From: Paraglomus occultum
Taxonomy: Eukaryota; Glomeromycota; Glomeromycetes; Paraglomerales; Paraglomeraceae
NCBI GenBank assembly: GCA_910592205.1
Contig: CAJVPJ010000458.1
Span: 1 to 24,567, forward strand
DNA length: 24,567 nt
Reading direction: 5' to 3'
Shown: in pieces, positions 140-13,238 of the stretch
How the letters are laid out: every line of letters begins with the position of its first letter
Numbering within the stretch: the first letter of the stretch is position 1
Translations under genes and position numbers: made by a program
Notes under the pieces: model-generated
What the model saw: the letters and a program-made list of their open reading frames with translations, nothing else
Databases searched by the model: none
Told to the model about the DNA's origin: nothing

Positions 140-841
140 CTGTAAGTATGTTAAAAGAATAAAAGAATAAATAAAAATAAAATAATATGGTAAATAACAA
201 CTACAATATAATATTAAAAACTCCACAAGAGCAACAAAAAGAGGCGCGTGGATGTGTGTAAAAGATATTAAAGGTAATACTTCCCTTGATTGACAGAGGT
301 TAAAATGGATGAGTAAAACGCGTTAAACAAATAAGTGACGCCACTTTCACTTCAACACGTGACTGGTCCACTTGAATAAAATACTTCCGGCCTCTATCCC
401 AGCGAACCTGCATAAAACTTAAACTATTTACGATGGAAACGAGAAACCATATAGAAACCAAGCCGTCAAGTTGGTGCATGCCAACCCCAGCAGCGAAGCT
501 GTGCACAGGTAGAGCCGTTACGTAGACTTTCGCACCTGCGGTTGTGATAATAAACACACCTTCTTTCACCGACCGCTCGCGTAATCCGTACATTGCGATT
601 CCTCCCGCCCACCCTGATATTTGTATATATCTTGAATTCAGAGTGCATTTGCCCCCCTCGCCTGCGCGTTTCCTGCGGCAAGCTCGGCTTGGGAAGCACA
701 TTCCCATCTCCAAACACGTCGTTCACACGATAGTTCGGACATTACACATTCAACACTAGACATTGGTATTGAGGTAGGATTGGCGCACAGCCGTTGTAAA
801 AGGTAAACTGGCATACGACTATCCCTATATAAAATAACCAT
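140..841. other. Interval without a supported gene; GC-richer from about 450
   Basis: 140-300 is AT-rich low-complexity sequence. From about 450 to 780 the composition is clearly richer in G and C than the rest of the left arm. The minus strand is open from 713 to 300 (137 codons, two hydrophobic stretches) and also in another frame over 466-726, with a short plus-strand opening at 544-759. None resembles a known family, the frames compete, and no convincing splice pattern or start context separates them. A fragment of a decayed gene is possible. The composition changes again just before the ORF at 842. Confidence 0.3.
826..835 (+). promoter_or_regulatory. TATATAAAAT box just upstream of the 86-codon ORF
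   Basis: TATATAAAAT ends six bases before the ATG at 842. That is too close for an ordinary eukaryotic TATA box but suits a bacterial -10 element with a leaderless or very short-leader transcript, as is frequent in mollicutes. Similar boxes precede the second copy of this ORF and the transposase-like gene. Function is inferred. Confidence 0.3.
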
Positions 842-1102
842 ATGAAACTCGTTTACATCAAGTCCACCATGGAACCCAAGAATTACAGCACTATTAGAGG
901 CATTCTAAAAAAAGCTCAAGGAGAAAAAATTGCGCCTTACGTTTTTAAAATCAACAATACCCAAACTCTCCAAGAATATCTAGATCAAGAAAAAATAACT
1001 TATGAAATTTACCAGGAAGAACGAAAAATTATAACTAATAAACGAACATTACCACCAACACATGATGAACCAAGAAAGAAGCGAAAATTAGATAAAATGT
1101 AA
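842..1102 (+). CDS. 86-residue lysine-rich protein, copy 1 (unknown function)
   Basis: An intact 86-codon ORF starts MKLVYIKSTM and has no cysteine or tryptophan. The N-terminus (KLVYIKST) looks like a beta strand. The middle is a charged region rich in Lys, Glu and Gln (QTLQEYLDQEKITYEIYQEE) and probably helical. The C-terminus carries DEPRKKRKL, which resembles a classical monopartite nuclear localisation signal. A second copy of exactly equal length lies at 7722-7982 on the other strand. By hand alignment they differ at about 28 of 261 bases and 11 of 86 residues, with no indel, and similarity stops at the start and stop codons. The family is not recognised. It adjoins genes that read with TGA as Trp, so an endobacterial origin is likely, but it contains no TGA that would prove it. 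Confidence 0.6.
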   Translation: MKLVYIKSTMEPKNYSTIRGILKKAQGEKIAPYVFKINNTQTLQEYLDQEKITYEIYQEERKIITNKRTLPPTHDEPRKKRKLDKM

Positions 1103-1265
1103 TGCAAAATATCTAAGATCTTTGTTTGAGGATTATCTCTTTTTTCAATAACATATCAAAGGCTATATTTTTAGTTTCACTTAAACGAAAATGATTGCCA
1201 TTTCTTTGACAGTTAAAATAATCAATTTATATGGTAGAAAGTAACCAAAATTTTCGACCTTTAAA

Positions 1266-1829
1266 TTATTTCCTCCCTTTCAATCAAGACCATTTTTTAG
1301 GTTCTTTAATTTCTATTTGGGCAGTTAGTTGAGTTTGCTGCTTTTTTAGTTGTTCAACCTCATTTTCTAGCCTTTGAATTTTATCTAATAATTCTTGCTT
1401 TTGCTTATTGTGCCAATCCTTTGAAACTTCCAAGGCTTTTAAATGAGTGCTAATTTCCTCTTTTGCACTATCTAATTGCTGTTTAAAATCTTTATTTTGT
1501 TGTTCCAATCTGCCAACATAACTCTGTGCCATTACTTCTGTTATTGTTGGAGGAGTTTTTTTTGTTTTATCTTTTCTTAAACAGAAGAAACAGTCTACTC
1601 CATTTCTCATAACTCGACCACAATTATTACAATGAGGTAGAGCATCAGCATTAAGAGCTTCTTTACATTCAACACAGATATAAGCAACATCACTACAACC
1701 ATTATTGCTTATATTGTAAGATACTGCTTTATAAGTAGCAATTGAACCATTTTCTCTTTCAAAAGAGCAGAAATCACAACTCCATCTGCCTTCTCTCTTT
1801 AATTTGATAACTTGATATTCCAATTTCAT
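1266..1829 (-). CDS. Zinc-ribbon plus coiled-coil protein, code-4 reading
   Basis: The preferred start is MKLEYQVIKLKREGRW at 1829, because it sits one base after the stop of the upstream gene. A longer start at 1859 (MLTFYKRVNS) would overlap that gene. The N-terminal half has four Cys pairs (WSCDFCSF, YICVECKEA, HCNNCGR, DCFFCLR), so two treble-clef or ribbon zinc sites are likely. From about residue 100 onward the chain is a Gln/Glu/Lys-rich coiled coil with heptad-like Leu spacing. In the standard code the frame ends at TGA (1284-1286). Read as Trp, it runs five more codons to TAA at 1266 and ends WSWLKGRK. The coiled coil shares the pattern HLKALEVSKDW with the upstream gene (HLEALEVAKEW), so the two are paralogues. 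Function unknown; I infer a mollicute-type mobile-DNA or plasmid accessory gene. Confidence 0.55.
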
Positions 1830-1830
1830 A

Positions 1831-2408
1831 CTATTTACTCTTTTGTAAAATGTAAGCATTAAACTTTTCTCTAACTATTTCTTTTGTTTGGCTAACTTTA
1901 TTCTTTACTTTGTTAGATAGGTGTTTAAAATTTTTTTCTTTCTTTGGTAAGGATGGTAGTTCTTTAAGTTCCTTGTCTCTTAAATAACTCTGTCATATCA
2001 CATCATTTCTTAACATTTCTATTTTGTCATCTTTTTCTTTACTTTGTCTTATTCTCCACTCCTTGGCTACTTCAAGAGCCTCTAAATGACATTCAGATGT
2101 TTCCTCCTCCAATTCTAGTGCTTCTTCTAACTCTTGATTAGTTTGTTCTAACTCAATAACTTTTTTTTCTAGAAGAGTAGTCTTTTCTTCTAATTCTTTT
2201 CTAAATCAGACTTAGCTTCTTTTTCTTTTTTGATCAGCAGTTCATTAGTTTGATTGATGAAAAAAACATCCTATTTTAGTGGGAACTTCTTGGATTTTAC
2301 CTTTTTTTTTGCCACTGTTGAGCGATGTGTTGTAATAAATTAGATTTGCCTAATGCAGTTTAGGCTTTTGGCGTTGTTTATTATTTGTTCTTGATTATTG
2401 TTTGTCAT
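1831..2408 (-). pseudogene. Coiled-coil paralogue of the next gene, frameshifted, code-4 reading
   Basis: The frame opens with MTNNNQEQIINNAKSLN at 2408 and is broken by several small indels between about 2170 and 2360. After the breaks it continues as ALGKSNLLQHIAQQW, then a poly-Lys tract, then a long Glu/Leu coiled coil. The last 120 or so codons are open to TAG at 1831-1833 only if TGA at 1993-1995 is read as tryptophan (NDVIWQSYL). The stop is separated by one base from the ATG of the following gene, a bacterial operon-like arrangement that is odd in a fungal nucleus. HLEALEVAKEWRIRQSKE matches HLKALEVSKDWHNKQKQE of the neighbour. AT-rich sequence with TATA-like stretches precedes the start. 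No named family is recognised. The frameshifts indicate it is no longer functional. Confidence 0.55.
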
Positions 2409-2590
2409 ATTTTTGCTGTTTATGTTTATGTTTTTAATATACTTATATCAAATTTTTATAATTAAGTATATAATTACTTTGATTTTTTTTATTTAACTTT
2501 GAAAAATTAAAGTGAAAATGTTAGCCATATTCATTGAAAAAATTAAACGAAAAACTTAACATTAAAATGATAAATTTTAGTCTAAATATT

Positions 2591-4355
2591 TTATTCATTG
2601 CCAGTATATGTTGGTTGTGGACAAGTAATATCCTTGAATTCGTCTCTAACGAATTGGTAAATATTATGATAAAGATATTCTTGTCTTTTGTAATCCAAAG
2701 GAGGAGGTATTAGTACGAGGATGAAAAAGATTTAATTTTTTTTGGTAATTTTAGAAACGTTTGTCTTTCTCGTTTTTAACAAATTAAATTCAGTAAAAGC
2801 ACCATTAGCAACCAGCTGGGTTTTGACAATTCCAGGTCGAGCCGCTTCGAATACAAAATGCTGATATTTTTGTAAACCATTCAATTTTTTAAAGAAAATT
2901 CCCAACACGGAATTAAGATCAAGGTATTGAAAACCTTTTCCGTTGTCATAACGCTGGGCTTTATTTAATCCGGCTGTACTCGATTTTTTCACAACCTCAA
3001 CAATATGATTCACACGATCTACGGTCGTTTTGCGGTATAGTTTCTTAATCAATCCAAAACTACCATCACGCTTAAATTTGGTATGTCCCGGTACCGTAAA
3101 ATTTAATTCGATACTTTCATAATAGCCGCAGATTACTAAATATAAGTAAAATCAAATAGTAGCATTATTTTTATTCTGTCCACCCGCATTGTCACAAGTA
3201 ATTTTTAAATGTTTTTCGCCTTTATTCAATCGCTTAATCCCATCGAATACCAAGCTCAGCGTACCATTAGGGCCTTTGCCGATAATTTCATCCTCATCGA
3301 GAACGTAATTAATCTGTTCGCGTACTGCTTCATTTTGAATACCAAATAAATGCACTTTACGCGGACTAAGATAATAGATCTTACTTACTTGTTGATCGGA
3401 ATGGGGCATTTGAACGTTTTGTGCCCAACCGTAACTGTAATGAGCAGTAGCGTCAATGCTACAATAATCAGCTTTACCTCTTGTTATAAAATGTTCGTCC
3501 ACCAATTTTCTTTGTTGTTCTGCTAATTTTGTATTTTTGTTGTAATAATTTCTCTCAGTTTTAGCCTTAACTAAATGTTCTTTGAATTTTTTTAGTAAAT
3601 CTTTTGCTTCTTCTTTCTTACGAGCATTATACTGCAAACCGTTCCGAAAATGTTGGCACGTGTCACACAAATCCGTTCTTGGACTCATGATTTGAATATA
3701 AGGCGTTAATTGGTGTCATAACTTGCGAAATGCATCATATTTTAACAATTTCAATGTGCTATCATTTTCGAGACCAGCAATAAAATTGCGATAGACCGAT
3801 TTATAACTCTTTTCGGCTGGTAAAAGTGTAAGCGATTGCGTAATTCGATTAACATTTCTACCAGGACTTGGTAAGCCATGAATTTCCGCATAGTTTTCGA
3901 GAAAATTTTTCACAGCAGTAGCAACATTTATATCAATGGTTATCTTGGTTTTCCATCGTGGCATTCGTTTGATGTTACCGTGAATGCGTGGTATTATACC
4001 ATTCGTCGACAAGTGATTTCTAACGTTTTCGAAGTGCGTGCGACCAATTCCTAACATATTGAGATAGGTTTTTTGACAAAGAGGTGTGTTACGATCTCAA
4101 TAATAAAAAGTTCTCTTATTAGCACGCGTTTTCTTTTTAAGACGTCGGCTGACAGTTATTTCTCCGCCATTCATTGCTTTCAGTTGGGCCATTACAAATA
4201 TATCTTGCTCGGGTCTAGCGAGAGCTTGAAATGCTTCACGTAATTCAGCAAACTTCTCTCGGAATTTTTTTTGAGCAACCACATTTGCAACCTATTTCCA
4301 AGAAACGTATGGCTATGTCATATTCAGTGGAGCCATTATATTCATTATTTATCAT
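2591..4355 (-). pseudogene. Transposase-like gene (DUF7869-type) with TGA read as Trp
   Basis: One frame runs from 4282 to 2732 if three TGA codons (4097-4099, 3716-3718, 3152-3154) are read as Trp: FYYWDRN, FRKLWHQL and NATIWFYLY. Flanking motifs are those I associate with DUF7869-type transposon proteins: a Cys-rich N-terminus (EIGCKCGCSKK), PRTDLCDTCQ, CDNAGGQNKN, and PGHTKFKRDGSFGLIKK. The family typically has Trp near the last two TGA sites. The start MINNEYNGSTEYD (4355) joins the main frame through a one-base slip in the eight-T run at 4265-4272. Near the C-terminus a TAA (2732-2734) interrupts the frame, yet family-like sequence (LDYKRQEYLYHNIYQFVRDE) continues in the same frame to TAA at 2591. 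TGG is also used, at PRWKTK and YGWAQN. The likely role is DNA transposition by a DDE/RNase H-like nuclease (inference). The reading implies descent through a genome that decodes UGA as Trp, followed by decay. Confidence 0.7.
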
Positions 4356-4799
4356 ATACGAGTAGTCCTATATAAAATTTTAGTACTTTATGTGGTTTTG
4401 TTCTTTTGTTGCCTTGAAACGTACAATTAGTCACCCGATAACCAACTTAAGAAAGATTGTTATAGGACCAATCCGTATGGCGTCCAAAAATTTTCGATTC
4501 TGTCGCAGCAAACTCCATAATAGGATGACAGAGTGATGAGATCGTTCACATTCCATAGATGCAAAACATTTGGCATGCATTAACCTTACCAGGCTCTTAA
4601 CCGACTCTACAGTAAGATGTGAAAGAAAATTTTACGTTGGTCTATCCAAGAATAACTACAAGACTTCCCTCATACAAAGTTTCTATGGACCACAAATAAA
4701 AACACATTTAATCATAAAAGAAATGACAATCGAAATTTATTCACAAAAATAAGTGATGCCATCTTAACTAATCATGGTACTTTGAAATATTAAACAATT
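4356..4799. other. Intergenic interval, no gene seen
   Basis: A minus-strand TTTTATATAGG box at about 4367-4377 lies some 12 bases before the ATG of the transposase-like gene, resembling the box before the 86-codon ORF. The rest is AT-rich with only one short plus-strand opening (4570-4752) that has no recognisable content. The junction between code-4 DNA and fungal DNA should lie here; I see no clear target-site duplication or terminal repeat. Confidence 0.35.
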
Positions 4800-7551
4800 T
4801 CAACATTTTTTCTTCGGCGTGTTGAATACAGGGAAATTAATATTGGTTGTAATCTGCTTGATAGATGGCAGATTCGATATTTTGTGAATTGTCTGTGACA
4901 GTAACGTCATGCGTTGCTGAAAAAGGTATTATATTGTTATCTGACCTTATAGGAAGAAACATAGTGTGATTAAAGATACTTACATCCAAGGATAATAGGT
5001 ACTTAATACAGTGTTCTAGTAATCCTAATTCTGTTGATCGTGTTGGCACATGGAATTCCCCAATCGAAGTGAGCCGGTACATTGGGCCTTTTGCATCCAG
5101 TTTGTATAGTATGAACTGAGGGCCTATATATATACTTAGCGTATATTATTAAGCAGGCATTAGGCTCCACAAGATTCCAACATACCTATTACTTGAATTC
5201 CGAAAAGATGTAATTCTTCCAATACTTCTCCCAACCCACATTCTACAGTTCTTATACGCAGTTCATCGAAGATACGTTTCATTTTCATGAGTATCCGCCG
5301 TTTGTCAAATTCGATTTTACGTTTTGTTGCATGTGGTCATGCCACTTCTCCAACAGCACACACTGTATTGCTCTTGTCCTTAATAATTATCTTGATATCA
5401 GGACGACGTCTGTTTGAATGATCGGACTGGTCCCTGGACAAATAAGCATTCAGCACACTCCAATGAAAGCACAGTATTAGTCATGCAACAAATTACCATT
5501 CAATCCATTTGCCATAACTGCCAAGGAGAGTGTTAACAATGGGTGCTACCATGTTCACAATATAATCCATTTCTGAACCACATATGCTTGGTGGATCGTT
5601 TTTGAAGTACCTGATGCTGTGAGCCAGTTAGTATAGATTGTTTGTACTCACCAAGTAAATAATATTGTTCTGAACTTACAGATGTCCATACAACCATTGG
5701 ATTTTCATAGTTGTCTCATTTTCAGCTGCCAAGTTCCAATTTTGAAGCAAATACTCTCCATGATCAAGGGGGACTCCTTCACACAAACCTATCATAAAGT
5801 AATGATCAATCATACTGATTTTGCAGACATAAATGACAAATACATTGATAATACCTCACTATATTCACAAACAAGTTTTTCTCCAAGAGTTGTTATTGAG
5901 ACCGGTTGCAACTTATCGACACCAAGAATAAGTGATTTCCACACATGATCTGAGAATTTCTTACGTATCCCCGAATTTTCACTCAAATCAACTATACCAG
6001 ATAGAGCACTACAACAAGAATTTAGCCACTTGTATAGATTGCATGCCACAAGTAAAAATTGCTTCTCTGTTTACCCACATCCTTGCATCTGCTGTCATCA
6101 AAATATTTTGTTCTTGAAGCTCTTCTTGGTATGATTTTAGTACTTCATGTACATTAATTCCATCAACAATCCACTAAAACCTTAAGAATGTTTGTGAGAA
6201 ATTGTAATCAAATGCTGACATGGTATTAAACATCATTACCGCATCTGATAATGGAATCTGTTTGAGTCGTGAAGTAAATCCTTGTTCAACATCTTCATCA
6301 TCCTCTTCAACATCTTCAACATCTTCATATCCTCTTCAACATCTTCAACATCTTCAACATCCTTGCTATGGTAAAGGAAAAATATCACTCGTGTATATTT
6401 ATCATTAACAAATGGATAGACGCGAAATAGCTTACTTCACATGAGTAGCATTAGCATCATCAATGTATTCATCAAACGAGACACTGAAACTGGGATCCGT
6501 TCGGCACTGTAACATAATCAAAAGATGCTTTAATGAATACATAATATTTATCTAAAGATGGAAAGTGAGCCAAGAAACCTTTGTAATCAGTCACCTTCTT
6601 TGATGACTCCACAACTGTTATATCTTCTTGAGATCTTTTTGTAGCATTTGTTACAAAGGCTTCTGACATGTCTGAAATAATTGCTTCAACACCATGCCTC
6701 CGAGCCTCATCCAAAACATTTACGCTAGACATTACGTAATGACGCTGAGTCGTTCGCTATATACCGTCAAAATACAGAATATAGAGAAAGTTCCCTTTAC
6801 AAACCCGTCTTCCCAAAATTTAGAAACATAAATGTGCGCATTCATCTATTTCTCCAAAAATACGATGCAACGGCACATAAATTATGCTGACCTTCTTGCG
6901 TTCAAATATAATATCTTCAAAAAATGATTTCATCGGAATATGCGGATGTTGCTGCACGAAGGAAAAATAACAACAATATCAAAAGTAACTAAATACTTAA
7001 CAAACAACCCTTTCATAGTATAAAGCAAATCGCAATGAGGGAGCATTGAAAATTCCAACAAAATTTCCAAGCTGCTCAATATGATATGATGTTAACCATA
7101 TAATAACAGCCGAGAAACGCATCACCATCATCACTCGGGTACCGAAAATTTCCGGCAAAACCTCAGAGTTGCTCAATACATGCACACACGCATGGCGATT
7201 TATTTGACGTGCTATTACAACGTATAATAACAACTCAGAAGCACCCTCTCGCTTCCTCTTTTATAGAATAAAATCAAACCTGTTTGTCAGCACTTTTTGC
7301 TTCTTTCAAGTATCGTTCATACCATATACCGTCGAGTCCGTACCAATCTTCAGTATACGGCGGAGCTTGCAAGATGACATCCCGCAACTTAACAAGGAAA
7401 TCAGAATAGGTGCCAGTGGTGTTATCTACGTCGCGAAAGTAGGCGATAACGGCTAGGAACGAGTAACAAGAGTAAGAGCTCGTTGACGAACATGAAACTG
7501 CGAACGTCGAACTAACATACCATTGTACCCTAAATATCGTTCGCCACTCAT
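4800..7551 (-). pseudogene. Multi-exon fungal family gene broken by nonsense and frameshift mutations
   Basis: The start MSGERYLGYN (7551) follows a TATA box by about 40 bases. Exons with matching phases are 7521-7551, 7280-7452 (LQAPPYTEDWYGLDGIWYER), 6892-6951 (MKSFFEDIIFE), 6595-6756 (EARRHGVEAIISDMSEAF) and 6436-6506 (SFSVSFDEYIDDANATHV), then an acidic Asp-Val-Glu repeat exon from 6365. Later exons read IPLSDAVMMFNTMSAFDYNF, NDPPSICGSEMDYIVNMVAP, LMKMKRIFDELRIRTVECG, TSIGEFHVPTRSTELGLLE and, in the last (4800-4916), INFPVFNTPKKKC. Breaks are a one-base deletion in the acidic repeat near 6328, TAG at 6174-6176 and TGA at 5337-5339. That TGA falls before PHATKRK, where I expect Arg, so it is an ordinary nonsense change. 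I recognise the style as a lineage-specific Rhizophagus hypothetical family; its function is unknown. Confidence 0.6.
6285..6361 (-). repeat. Nine-base coding minisatellite (GATGTTGAA units, Asp-Val-Glu)
   Basis: The plus strand shows runs of TTCAACATC separated by TCATCATCCTC and TCATATCCTC. On the minus strand this encodes Asp-Val-Glu repeats with Glu-Asp-Asp spacers. One spacer has lost a base near 6328 compared with its sister, which shifts the frame. Slippage in the repeat is the likely cause. Confidence 0.75.
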
Positions 7552-7597: not shown

Positions 7598-7721
7598 TGC
7601 AATCCACGTGACTGTAGATCGGTTTTAGTCCGAGAGATTTCCGGATTAGTCCACGCAGATCATAATCATTAGCGAAGATAATTATATGGTCACTCGACCC
7701 ATGGCTGCTGGATTTGTTTCC

Positions 7722-7982
7722 TTATGTCTCTTCAAGTTTTCGTTTCTTTCTTGGTTCATCATGTGTGGGTGTTAATGCTCGTTTATTATTTATTATTTTT
7801 CTTTCTTCTTGGTAAATTTCATAAGTGATTTTTTCTTGATCTAGATATTCTTGGAGAGTTTGGGTATCATTGATTTTAAAAATGTATGGAGCAATTTTTT
7901 CTCCTTGAGCTTTTTTTAAAATACTTCTAATAGTGCTGTAATTCTTGGGTTTCATGGTGGATTTGATGTAAATTAGTTTCAT
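7722..7982 (-). CDS. 86-residue lysine-rich protein, copy 2 (unknown function)
   Basis: This intact ORF starts MKLIYIKSTM at 7982 and ends at TAA (7722-7724), the same length as the copy at 842-1102. Substitutions are scattered and include many silent changes (for example CTC/CTA, AAG/AAA, GCG/GCT, CCT/CCA), with no frameshift, which hints at past coding constraint. The basic DEPRKKRKL tail is fully conserved. TATATATAAAA lies about 30 bases upstream. The frame stays open upstream to 8090, but similarity to copy 1 begins at the ATG, so that start is preferred. Just upstream a separate short frame ends VPIIIPEGDEYKP. This copy lies between two fungal genes, about 3.4 kb from the transposase-like gene, so it is a separate insertion or was separated by rearrangement. 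Confidence 0.6.
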   Translation of the reverse strand: MKLIYIKSTMKPKNYSTIRSILKKAQGEKIAPYIFKINDTQTLQEYLDQEKITYEIYQEERKIINNKRALTPTHDEPRKKRKLEET

Positions 7983-8210
7983 ATTAATATAAATATTTTT
8001 ATATATAGAGGTAATCCTATTAATCCTGTTATGGTTTATATTCATCACCTTCTGGTATGATAATGGGAACATTAAAATTAACCAGTCCATAAGTATGAAT
8101 GAGCACCATTATTATTTTTCAAAATGTTGTTGTCAAATTAGTTAACTTTCACATCAGCCTCACATTTATGTCACATAACAGAATGTTCACTTTGTCTGGT
8201 TTTGTTGCAG

Positions 8211-8505
8211 TCTGCCCCATTTAATAACCACTGGCGAACCACCTTTTAGGAATAGAAAATTTGATGGAGATTTATTATCTGATATTATGGGTGGACTACG
8301 ACCAATGATGCCTGATTCAGCACCAGAAGAATACAAGAAACTTGCTGAGCTGTGTTGTGATGCTGACCCTGATAAGCGTCCGGATGCATGCACACTTGTG
8401 ACCGATCTTAACAATGTTGCTCGAAAAGTGGACGAGGACAATTCTGATGACAGCGTGTGGAATTTCGTTTATCGTAATGATGTAAAGCCCCAAGACGGAG
8501 AGTAA
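8211..8505 (+). pseudogene. Orphan 3' exon of a TKL-like protein kinase
   Basis: A good splice acceptor (TTTTGTTGCAG, ending 8210) opens an exon reading LITTGEPPFRNRKFDGDLL, then DIMGGLRPMMPDSAPEEYKK, then CCDADPDKRPDACTL, and a hydrophilic tail ending KPQDGE at TAA 8503-8505. This is the C-terminal lobe of a eukaryotic kinase: the TGxPPF stretch of subdomains IX-X and the KRP motif of subdomain XI, with its conserved Arg. It matches the very large Rhizophagus kinase family. The N-lobe, the catalytic HRD and DFG motifs and all earlier exons are absent upstream, where the 86-codon ORF lies instead. It is therefore a fragment that cannot catalyse phosphorylation. Confidence 0.75.
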
Positions 8506-8720
8506 AATATTCTAGTCTGCTGGAGATTTGCCTGGTACTAAACTGAGGCGTAGCTATGATTTGAGTAAAAGATAACAATTATCAATTTATCAATGTTAAG
8601 ATTGATGATTTATATAATGACCTAAACTCTTTTTGCATAAACTTGTAGTTTACATTTGCGTATGGCTTTGTGAGTTTATTCAATAGTTTACTTCTCCTCC
8701 ACACGTACCAATGGGGTATT

Positions 8721-8876
8721 ATGGCAAGTTACATAAAATGTTGCAATGGACGATTTGTATTGATATTTGACTATTTTAAAATAACAACTTTAGTTAGCAT
8801 TGTCGTACTGTTAACATTATGGTTACGATTACAAGTAAGAAGAAAAGTTGCGGCTCAAAAGAAAATGAAGAAATGA
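8721..8876 (+). CDS. Possible small single-pass membrane protein
   Basis: The ORF starts MASYIKCCNGRFVLIFDYF and carries one strongly hydrophobic stretch (ITTLVSIVVLLTLWLRL) followed by a basic tail rich in Lys and Arg (RRKVAAQKKMKK). That gives a predicted 51-residue membrane peptide with a positively charged C-terminus. An in-frame start at 8670 would add 17 residues. No family is recognised and no intron or promoter supports expression. It may be a chance opening in the 3' region of the kinase fragment. Confidence 0.25.
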   Translation: MASYIKCCNGRFVLIFDYFKITTLVSIVVLLTLWLRLQVRRKVAAQKKMKK

Positions 8877-9131
8877 CCGGGAGATGATTAAATAATAGAT
8901 GGAGGCAAATTCGTTACAATACCCTCTTGGCGGATTGAAAATACTTTATAGAAACGGAGCCTGAGAATCTGTTTCCTCTTTACTTCATGATGATGGAAAA
9001 AAAAATCTCGACATTCGGCTAGCATAAAAAATTAGTAACGGAATACGCGTTACAAATTTTTGTGTCGCAATCACATGATTGGTGGTAACATAAATTTTGG
9101 TGACTTTTTTAAATTTAATCACCTTTATAAC

Positions 9132-10562
9132 ATGGCCGGCATTTATCGCACTTCGACACATGTAGGCGTATACAAACATCTACACAGTCATACTGCATAT
9201 TCCCTGCATTCTTCATTCTGCATATTATTTAAACAACCTGTCACTTACATAGCTTTTAGACGAAATGCAAGTGCGTTTGCATCACGCAAACAGTTACTTG
9301 GAGGACACAGTCTCGCTGACACCTCGAAAACGACAGCAAGAGAGTCAACAAGAGCATTAAGCACGACTACAAACACTAACCCAAAATCCGAAAACCTCAT
9401 ACCGTCCTTTGCAGCCGCGCGGACAAAGAACAACAATAATAACGACACAAAGAGTTCCTTACTGGAAAAGAAGAATGATAAAAATGTCAAGACCAACAAA
9501 CCCGAACCTGCTACTATGAAAATACTGAATACTCCGAATTCTTCTATCGTAAGGCATCGGCTAAATAATCTTGGCATATTAGGTGATTGATCTATCTAGA
9601 TCAGTTTTGAAAAAGCGCGAGAGAGAGACTCGTTGACCAACTTTGTCTCTGCTTGATTACTAGACGCGTACGTTCCGCCAGAGAAAATGCCAAAGATGTT
9701 TACGAAAGAATATTTCAGAAAACTTCGGCAACGGTCAAAGAATTTTTGGAAAAATTTTATTCAGTAAGACGGGGACTTGGCTGGCGCATTCTCCATCATT
9801 CTTTTCCCTCGCTCTAAATAATTCTTATTTTCAATGTTAGCGTTGGGCTAACGAGACGAGCAGAGTATAAATTAAGGCTCCCAGCAGACAAACAATGGAA
9901 ACCTACCCTGTTTAAAATAGAAGCCGTTGAAACATACAAGGAAATGAATAGACATTTTGCAGAAGGAAACATCAAAGGTCTCAAAAAATTTTGTCACGAG
10001 CATATGTTACAGGTAAGACGAGGCGAGGGGAATGTAGAGAGTTTGAGAGAAAGAGTGAAACAGTTGATAGTTGCTTTTAGCTTACGAGTTTTATTCATGC
10101 GATCCTAGTACTTAATCGGTTCTCTTTCCAGGGGTTTAAAAATCAACTGAAATCGAGATCACCAGGCAGATACGTATGGAAATTTGGAGGAATGGTCGAA
10201 AAGCCACGTATCGTCAATGTTCGAGCCTTTCAAGTCATGAATCCAACCGAGTATGTGCTTAATCAAGTTATCATCCGTATACACTCGAAACAGGTAAGTT
10301 CATACGTTTCATAGTTATTTTCTCAGTTACGCTTCTCCCTTTTACATTCATACTCTCTTGTCCGAACCAGTCCTTGGTCGTTTACGACACTTCTAATAAC
10401 TTGCGCGGAGGGGATCCAAACAAATTCCGAAATGTCCTAGAATATGTAGTATTTCAGCGACGTTTATGGGAGCCGGATGAGGGTTGGCTTATTTACGGTT
10501 ATTATGTGCCCGAGAGAGGTCCAAATAATGCCGTGAGCCAGACAAAAGATGGTAAAAAATAA
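9132..10562 (+). CDS. Mitochondrial Mba1 / ribosomal protein mL45-like (Tim44-like domain)
   Basis: Five exons join in phase: 9132-9582, 9682-9763, 9841-10012, 10132-10293 and 10371-10562, giving 352 residues. The start MAGIYRTSTHVG opens an Arg/Ser-rich, acid-poor N-terminus typical of a mitochondrial targeting sequence. A low-complexity Asn/Lys/Thr linker follows. Exons 3-5 form the Tim44-like domain shared by Mba1 and mL45: EAVETYKEMNRHFAEGN, LKSRSPGRYVWKFGGMVE, FQVMNPTEYVLNQVIIRIHS and VVFQRRLWEPDEGWLIYG. Proteins of this fold bind the mitochondrial ribosome near the exit tunnel and the inner membrane and help insert nascent chains. An earlier in-frame ATG at 9075 is possible but less like a presequence. 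All introns are 77-119 bases with GT-AG ends. It converges on the CTF8 gene. Whether it is Mba1 or mL45 cannot be settled by eye. Confidence 0.85.
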
Positions 10563-11624: not shown

Positions 11625-13238
11625 ATGTATCAACAACAGAAATTTTACCCACAACAGACCGCTCACTCCCCGCCACCATTACAACACCCGATCCCCACTC
11701 ATCCACCGATACAAATGCGTGACCCACCGTCTGGTCCGCCTGGTTCGCCGTCTCCACCAATATCAACGGGATATAGTATGATGGGACAGCCAATGTCAAC
11801 ACAAGGAAATTACCAAGGAAATTTCCAAGGGTGGCGGCTGGAGGGAGAAGCAGCGCAGATGAGTTTACAGTTTGGGAAAACTGCCGTTATTGCTGGTAGC
11901 GAATACGTTGAGAAGAATGTAAGCAAGTGAGTCGAAAAAAAAAAATCGGGGTGCTGGTATGAAAGTATTTTGGAGAAAGATCGATTTGCCAAGGTTATAA
12001 GGAAAATAGAACAAAACAAAGAGCATTCTTGCAAGTTTAAATTTGATTGATTGATTGATCTTGTTGGGATATTATTAATATTTCTCAGCTTTGATCATGC
12101 CACCTTTTATCACTTGCTGAAATAATCTCTGTATCCTTATTTTGCGCTAAAAAATTCTCGCAGATAAACCGCTACGTGAATTTTCCGGCTCTTAAACATT
12201 ATTTCAATGTGAATAATTCTTATGTTGCAAATAAGATTCGCCTAGTATTATTTCCTTGGCGACATAAGGTAAAGTGAAGAAGAATATATATAATTGTTTT
12301 ATCTTGGTTTCCAATGTTTTGATATTGGGCAATTTGTATGTGGGGTTTTGCGCGAAACACTGACGATTTGATTGTTGGTTTGCCACAATAGCCATGGACG
12401 AGGTTGGTGAGAAGATCTGAGCAAAATGGACAAATGGAAGGGTATGAGCCACCACGAGAAGATATAAATTCGCCTGATTTGTACATTCCAAGTGAGTGTA
12501 GATTGTTCCCTGATTGTAACATATTTGAATACTCGTAAACTAATGATTGCGGTCTGTTCTTGCGTAGCAATGGCTCTTGTAACATACGTATTACTTACAG
12601 GAATAGTAGCAGGAACTGAGCACAAGTAAAGAGCGTGTTTATAACAAACTGAAATCTTGCTAGATAACGTGTTCGCGTGTTGCTGATACATTCTAATCTT
12701 ATCCAATCTAGATTCCACCCAGAAGTATTAGGAATGAATGCTACAGCAGCATTCCTTATTGTTATTTCTGAATTGGCGTTCATAAAGACTGGATGTTATT
12801 TGCTGAGTATTACGTCTGAAAGTCAGTTCTTGGATCTCATGGCATATAGCGGATACAAATTCATCGGGTATGGAATCTCTGTTAGATGAAAAAGATGTCT
12901 ACTGAAAAATCAGCAATGACATTAACAATTTCGCAAATTTCAATACTACAGATCCATAGCAACCCTGCTTGTATCTCTCGTGGCTCCATTCTGGATTGTT
13001 CTTGTAACATTCTTTTACGCTGCATTTGCCAACGGATTTTTCCTTGTAAGCATCGTTAATCAGTCGTAAGGATCGCTACGCTTTACACTTACATTTATTT
13101 CCTTCTATACAGCTTCGGTCGCTTCGGTATATTGTGATTCCTGAGGCGACAACAACTGTCAAGCGTAAACGGAGAATTAACTTTCTATTTTTCATTGCAG
13201 CTTTGCAAGTAGTATTGATGTATTTATTAGTTAAATAG
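11625..13238 (+). CDS. YIF1: YIF1 family ER-Golgi transport protein
   Basis: Seven exons join in phase: 11625-11918, 12164-12268, 12392-12491, 12568-12625, 12712-12867, 12952-13045 and 13113-13238, giving 310 residues, close to yeast Yif1. The N-terminus is a Pro/Gln-rich cytosolic region (MYQQQKFYPQQTAHSPPP). INRYVNFPALKHYFNVNNSY and IRLVLFPWRHK are signature stretches, followed by RPW-like PWTRLVRR. Several membrane segments follow: MALVTYVLLTGIVAG, ATAAFLIVISELAFIKTG, SIATLLVSLVAPFWIVLVTF and the C-terminal LFFIAALQVVLMYLLV. Yif1 works with Yip1 and Yos1 in COPII vesicle budding and fusion at the ER-Golgi boundary. TTTACAG just before the ATG suggests a 5' UTR intron. In exon 1 the donor GTAAGC after AAT was chosen because it restores the family sequence. 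Confidence 0.93.

Follow-up and report, generated by a model that had tools for sequence, protein, structure and literature searches.

Codon use in a broken DUF7869 transposase

The window analysed here, a 24,567-nt stretch of DNA from the arbuscular mycorrhizal (AM) fungus Paraglomus occultum, corresponds to contig C458 in a fungal assembly of 32.3 Mb and 1,408 contigs. Near its left end lies a block in which the left unit (LE) of a high-copy terminal-repeat element, cut at 813, is followed by a gene referred to as gene 1, the remnant of a second gene and a broken transposase of the DUF7869 (PF25273) family. The original prediction had read five minus-strand TGA codons in this block as tryptophan, and all five were found in frame where it had placed them. 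Three of them (4097–4099, 3716–3718 and 3152–3154) are Trp codons of the transposase and the sole internal stops of a contiguous minus-strand frame of 517 codons at 2732–4282. The fourth (1993–1995) sits in an otherwise open frame of 124 codons, and the fifth (1284–1286) terminates a 191-codon open reading frame (ORF) that code 4 (UGA = Trp) extends to 1266. The contiguous transposase frame was confirmed; the extent given for the gene was not, its true span being 2591–4355 on the minus strand, with frame breaks near 4280 and near 2735.

Pfam scans of the single window ORFs gave no match above a curated cut-off and none at E 0.01. The broken transposase was assigned to DUF7869 with E 4.8e-15, and protein P0050 of this family scored 56.1 bits against a cut-off of 26 over residues 309–487. 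An RNase-H-like core fold (DDE/RNase-H type) is predicted for it. In an alignment of 47 rows, Asp is present in at least 90% of rows at column 285 and is invariant at columns 364 and 406; by our own assignment, D285, D364 and D406 are putative catalytic acidic residues. In the window copy the Asp of column 285 is replaced by Gly. Identity to Mos1, IstA and retroviral integrase, all of DDE/RNase-H type, is only 6–14%, and membership of a common family with them is not implied. DUF7869 proteins of Glomeromycotina, such as Rhizophagus irregularis GLOIN_2v1484099, belong to the same Pfam family at ~40% identity and have the motifs CDN..GQNKNN and GHTKF..D in common with the window family; however, they are full-length models in a separate clade, whereas the window family is broken and has TGA for Trp. 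Upstream of the transposase start, a conserved right-hand edge (4356–4382) shows the motif GGTAATCCTATATA in other copies and recurs at 13 other loci. Similarity among copies fades close to it, at 4381–4398, and no left end with a terminal repeat matching this edge (~4382) was found.

The transposase has at least 156 matches in its own genome (150 of 322 candidates scored), which lie on more than 100 contigs. The 30 loci used below are the best matches to the window copy among the 156, a sample in which young and very old copies may be under-represented. On contig C771, two copies 8.3 kb apart (400–858 and 8691–9149) have identical scores and stop counts, reflecting either a repeat in the assembly or a local duplication of copies that had already decayed.

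Codon use was counted in 29 of these loci, for which high-scoring segment pairs (HSPs) of at least 60% identity were kept, so that L037 was left out. The results showed that the five Trp columns hold 69 TGA, 38 TGG, 2 TAG, 1 TAA and 6 other codons (116 cells), and the other 511 columns 20 TAA, 12 TGA and 12 TAG, a stop rate of 62% (72/116) at Trp columns versus 0.4% (44/10,849) elsewhere. The comparison of TGA with TAG at the Trp columns gave p = 2e-18. When all HSPs from 30 loci were included, the Trp columns held 78 TGA, 43 TGG, 2 TAG, 1 TAA and 7 other codons (131 cells). Ranked by TGA among all 516 columns, the Trp columns are the top five (21, 16, 15, 9 and 8 copies), and the next column has 2. 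Stops common to at least two copies are the TGA codons of these five columns and, otherwise, stops at three sites with two copies each. Complete Trp-codon (TGA/TGG) haplotypes fall into eight distinct types among 11 copies. At the Trp sites of both the transposase and gene 1, TGA is interchangeable with TGG and other stops are avoided. The codon counts of the genomic copies support the proposal that bacterial-type DNA of code 4 lies in a fungal chromosome. The proposal of a single bacterial block was supported with respect to bacterial origin but not with respect to one block, since the mobile-element family is spread genome-wide.

Selection, decay and the fungal surroundings

Variants among the transposase copies were scored against the majority codon, with 'stop' meaning a single base change that alone gives TAA or TAG; under neutrality, 27.7% of changes would be synonymous and 3.0% stop-making. 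The results showed that variants present in at least two copies comprise 486 synonymous, 328 nonsynonymous and 13 stop-making changes (n = 827; 59% synonymous), and singletons 232, 693 and 37, respectively (n = 962; 24% synonymous). By codon position, shared variants are distributed 199/116/512 and singletons 317/295/350. In LE (35 alignment rows), 48% of common and 23% of private variants are synonymous, against a neutral 27%; the corresponding common and private values are 43% and 22% in gene 1 (14 rows) and 48% and 26% in a putative helix-turn-helix (HTH) cargo gene of LE units (10 rows), suggesting that the HTH cargo was also once under selection somewhere. The codon counts, together with the synonymous contrast between shared and private variants, indicate that selection acted in a source where UGA was read as Trp, and that the copies decayed neutrally after arrival.

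In a DNA tree of 26 copies, built with the Trp columns omitted, the copies form a star-like pattern (median end branch 0.089). When the Trp codons are placed on this tree, one column needs no TGA/TGG change, and the other four need at least 6, 6, 6 and 1. The star-like tree, the repeated TGA/TGG changes and the eight haplotypes point to many arrivals from a varied source and not to the spread of one dead copy. The sampled copies look like separate arrivals that were unreadable in the fungal genome and have decayed there ever since. This suggests that jumping genes of bacteria entered host DNA many times.

The surroundings of three transposase copies were examined, those of the window copy, C125:36561 and C1:98352. 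In the window, a fungal YIF1 gene (11625–13229, plus strand) starts ~7 kb from the code-4 block and is split over frames as with introns, with Pfam YIF1 matches of E 2.1e-40 in one frame (best stretch 12158–12490) and E 7.5e-9 in another (13110–13229); 11625–11930 is presumably its first exon. This gene marks the contig as nuclear, and the contig is taken to be fungal because of the split-frame YIF1 and the named database relatives from AM genera. XRN1 domains lie over two frames ~5 kb from the copy at C125:36561, and Crinkler and AAA-ATPase domains over three frames ~2–4 kb from that at C1:98352, on a 146-kb contig. Fungal gene domains (YIF1, XRN1 or Crinkler) are therefore present 2–8 kb from the copy in all three contexts (3/3), which disfavours a chimera.

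Companion genes and element ends

The LE unit of the window (813–1108, plus strand) has 30 other genomic rows at 82–92% identity; this is a lower bound, accompanied by weaker rows, from 40 of 388 candidates scored. Other LE copies extend the left side by another ~200 nt, up to a 38-nt terminal repeat. The 86-aa LE ORF (842–1102, plus strand) has no Trp; it had been counted as part of the block, and it proved to belong to a high-copy unit that is also found alone. It has 681 database relatives, and among the 120 of them listed, one carries an organism name (Dentiscutata erythropus). A second LE unit (7711–8223, minus strand) is an inverted repeat of 840–1113 at 88%, and its terminal repeat (8187–8223) has 0 mismatches over 32 nt, with 0 of 100 shuffles as good. 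The LE unit starts sharply at a terminal repeat of the form TGGGGCA..CTGCAACAAAACCAGACAAAGTGAAC, outside which the sequence differs from locus to locus. One locus, L059, has both LE repeats (38 nt, 92%) around 1,320 bp that contain LE and a membrane-type cargo gene; 32 other LE ends are single, and in a few of these the first bases are shifted or altered. Any LE target duplication is at most TATA and is ambiguous, and when the left flank of L059 was used to look for an empty site, only that flank itself matched. A reading of the two ends as direct repeats like long terminal repeats was rejected, since the end motifs are inverted and the true LE end is ~200 nt farther out. Elsewhere in the window, at 6282–6370, there is a short tandem array of the CTTCAACAT type with six register copies and steps of mostly 9 nt.

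Gene 1 (1266–1859, minus strand) encodes 197 aa under code 4, with a Cys-rich N-terminus and a coiled coil, and the second Trp of its WSWLK is the TGA at 1284–1286. In its own genome it has 85 matches at E <= 10, of which 60 reach E <= 1e-3, and among its 49 database relatives the one with an organism name is from Entrophospora candida. In 11 genomic copies, four Trp columns hold 23 TGA, 7 TGG, 2 TAA, 0 TAG and 5 other codons. Many of the database relatives examined extend through the C-terminal W[PS]WLK; three (P0002, P0014 and P0020) stop right before its first Trp and P0013 right before the second, as would be expected from standard-code gene calling of TGA. Overlapping the start of gene 1 is the remnant of a second coiled-coil gene (1831–2408, minus strand), disrupted by a frameshift and stops. 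Under code 4 its frame at 1834–2205 stays open, with a single TGA (Trp, 1993–1995), its N-terminal piece is in another frame, and its DNA is kept to 2117–2130 in other genomic copies.

In LE units with membrane-type cargo, five Trp columns of six copies hold 23 TGA, 3 TGG and 3 other codons. In the HTH cargo, all 13 cells of two Trp columns are TGG, which, with two columns only, hints weakly at standard-code cargo; this cargo may be the standard-code version of an LE-associated unit. The HTH cargo, perhaps DNA-binding as judged by eye, lies at L057:2087–2635 (minus strand) and also at L049, L056, L058, L060, L062, L065 and L066. LE or a piece of it adjoins gene-1 relatives of 26–37% identity at three of four loci (L079 is without LE), implying that the LE/gene-1 pairing is probably old. 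At L019, which has no gene-1 match, LE and transposase are 594 bp apart in the same order as in the window, and LE, cargo and transposase perhaps moved together as one element. No relative was found in IMG/VR scans with the transposase, gene 1 and LE, and plasmid and phage records gave no match.

Source of the elements and alternative explanations

The transposase has 111 database relatives, 45 of them at 50% identity or more. They occur in Ambispora, Geosiphon, Diversispora and Gigaspora, and in a metagenome-assembled genome (MAG) of Candidatus Moeniiplasma. In the 45 closer relatives, Trp columns fall in protein gaps in 53 of 138 cases versus 449 of 7,557 elsewhere, i.e. more than 25 residues from any Trp column. 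Protein models from Geosiphon, Ambispora and Diversispora pass over several Trp sites or terminate at them, and from the models alone we read the skipped sites as false introns around TGA codons. In a midpoint-rooted protein tree of 61 hand-chosen rows, copies of the P. occultum genome interleave with entries from Ambispora, Geosiphon and Diversispora and with unnamed entries, presumed metagenomic, and P0071 of Gigaspora rosea falls within the same clade. The sister clade holds P0108 (I3273_02745), a protein of the same family from the Ca. Moeniiplasma glomeromycotorum MAG, of mollicute taxonomy, and the joint group of 46 rows is supported 100/100. Neither clade includes the full-length proteins from Rhizophagus and Gigaspora, which are ~40% identical.

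The same assembly contains a contig, C537 (22.4 kb; L074, L075 and L078), with 16S, 23S and 5S genes, Lon and genes of the alpha/spc operons. Its ten open frames of at least 200 codons have 35 TGA vs 12 TGG as Trp codons, and the SecY frame has 14 vs 5. By codon use and gene content we call it mollicute-type. C537 also encodes a Pfam CPT match (chloramphenicol phosphotransferase-like), without TGA.

Taken together, these results make it probable that the block is mobile-element DNA of a Mollicutes-related endobacterium (MRE) of the Ca. Moeniiplasma type that has entered the fungal nuclear genome repeatedly. We infer that the donor was the MRE of this lineage, and that insertion occurred by transposition rather than by repair of leaked DNA, precise ends being seen for LE units only. 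In such a scheme, the DUF7869 transposase with its DDE/RNase-H core would move within an endobacterium that reads UGA as Trp, perhaps with companion units (LE and code-4 cargo). Element DNA would reach fungal nuclei in the shared cytoplasm and be inserted by transposase, as the precise LE ends suggest, or by break repair, with many nuclear entries from a pool of diverse, functional source copies. UGA is a stop in the standard fungal nuclear code, so a nuclear copy would be unable to make transposase. Translation there would end at the first UGA, leaving a copy dead on arrival, unable to spread on its own and subject to neutral decay.

Several observations weigh against this explanation. None of the transposase, gene 1, LE or the cargo was found in the 20 kb searched of the 22.4 kb of C537. 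A search for bacterial DnaA, positive in 13 of 14 controls, found none in the assembly (0/1), which therefore probably covers only part of the resident endobacterium. The Ca. Moeniiplasma protein P0108 is just 55% identical, partial (329 aa) and known from the protein alone. Outside the joint clade, named relatives are eukaryotic (Rhizophagus, Gigaspora and bivalves) except for one archaeal MAG label, and the ultimate origin of the transposase may therefore be eukaryotic. A scan of GTDB contigs with gene 1 returned none, and one with the transposase alignment gave no Mollicutes and three contigs elsewhere. The membrane-type cargo shows no selection contrast (shared variants 30%, singletons 37% and neutral 28% synonymous; 6 rows), and the C771 pair, alike in score and stops, implies some duplication in the nucleus or in the assembly. 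As for the three GTDB contigs (L069, L070 and L071), they are short, carry DUF7869 relatives at 31–35% identity and are filed under Thiomargarita, Desulfobacterales and Cycloclasticus; these are either contamination or real spread.

A different history, in which one or a few ancient entries were followed by fast nuclear amplification, a standard-code relative providing the transposase in trans, would agree with the star-like tree and its long end branches, the full-length DUF7869 proteins in Rhizophagus and Gigaspora, the identical stops of the C771 pair and the LE units with TGG-only cargo in the same genome. However, a nuclear burst from one dead founder should leave little shared synonymous variation and more shared lesions, unlike the rich shared variation (59% synonymous), the eight haplotypes in 11 copies and the mere three shared non-Trp stop sites observed, and we consider this history unlikely. 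Fungal mitochondria also read UGA as Trp (table 4), and mitochondrial DNA often enters nuclei. A mitochondrial source would thus obey the same codon rule, but the relative in the Ca. Moeniiplasma MAG, the bacterial-looking overlap of gene 1 and the remnant gene, and the presence in the assembly of a mollicute-type contig with the same codon use make it very unlikely.

The original prediction had also allowed that two genomes were joined in assembly. Assembly chimera or endobacterial contamination could draw on the presence of mollicute-type C537 and on MRE contigs reported from Glomeromycotina assemblies in a portion of PMC10507103. Yet the matches lie on more than 100 contigs, the copies are decayed, split-frame fungal gene domains lie 2–8 kb from the copy in three contexts, and in four further AM fungal genera close relatives have protein models with breaks at the same Trp sites; the flanking fungal genes in the three contexts led us to reject this explanation, which we regard as extremely improbable. 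The chance that the stops arose by plain nonsense decay of a standard-code fungal transposon is close to nil. Copies do carry private TAA, TAG and TGA stops, but those outside the Trp columns are mixed (18 TAA, 12 TAG and 8 TGA), whereas those at Trp sites are 69 TGA, 2 TAG and 1 TAA, and no other column of the 516 is as rich in TGA as the five Trp columns, so that plain decay is ruled out by the codon counts. The homologues with TGG at all sites that such decay would leave were sought within this genome, and in 27 of the 29 sampled copies at least one of these Trp sites is TGA.

Exchange of genes between MRE and AM fungi is known from the same two partners. Extracts of PMC10507103 and PMC11423566 describe gene transfer from host to MRE and the contamination of fungal assemblies by MRE, part of PMC5982333 likewise describes transfer from the fungal host to MRE, and an excerpt of a review puts horizontally acquired genes at ~5% of MRE genes (PMC13315312). 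According to that part of PMC5982333, reports of bacteria-to-AMF (AM fungi) transfers had been very few, and the bacterial donors identified in that paper itself were not known MRE. The published direction, as far as these extracts go, is mainly host to bacterium; in contrast, the present case runs from bacterium to fungus, via mobile elements and in many copies. No description of UGA-Trp transposons in fungal nuclei was found in open-access titles and abstract openings, a search that left most subscription papers uncovered.

We also consider, as a possibility that is itself doubtful, a two-kingdom system in which transposase made in the endobacterium inserts LE/DUF7869 DNA straight into host chromosomes. 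If so, the fungus would keep a fossil record of the transposons of its bacterial lodgers, and the elements may shuttle genes between two genetic codes, the same terminal repeats flanking TGG-only cargo. With respect to genome annotation, false introns may be present at UGA-Trp codons in the gene models of several published AM fungal genomes. The altered codon serves as a label of code-4 origin inside a fungal genome, and from the sequence alone one can read the direction of bacterium-to-host insertions, how many there were and their relative age.

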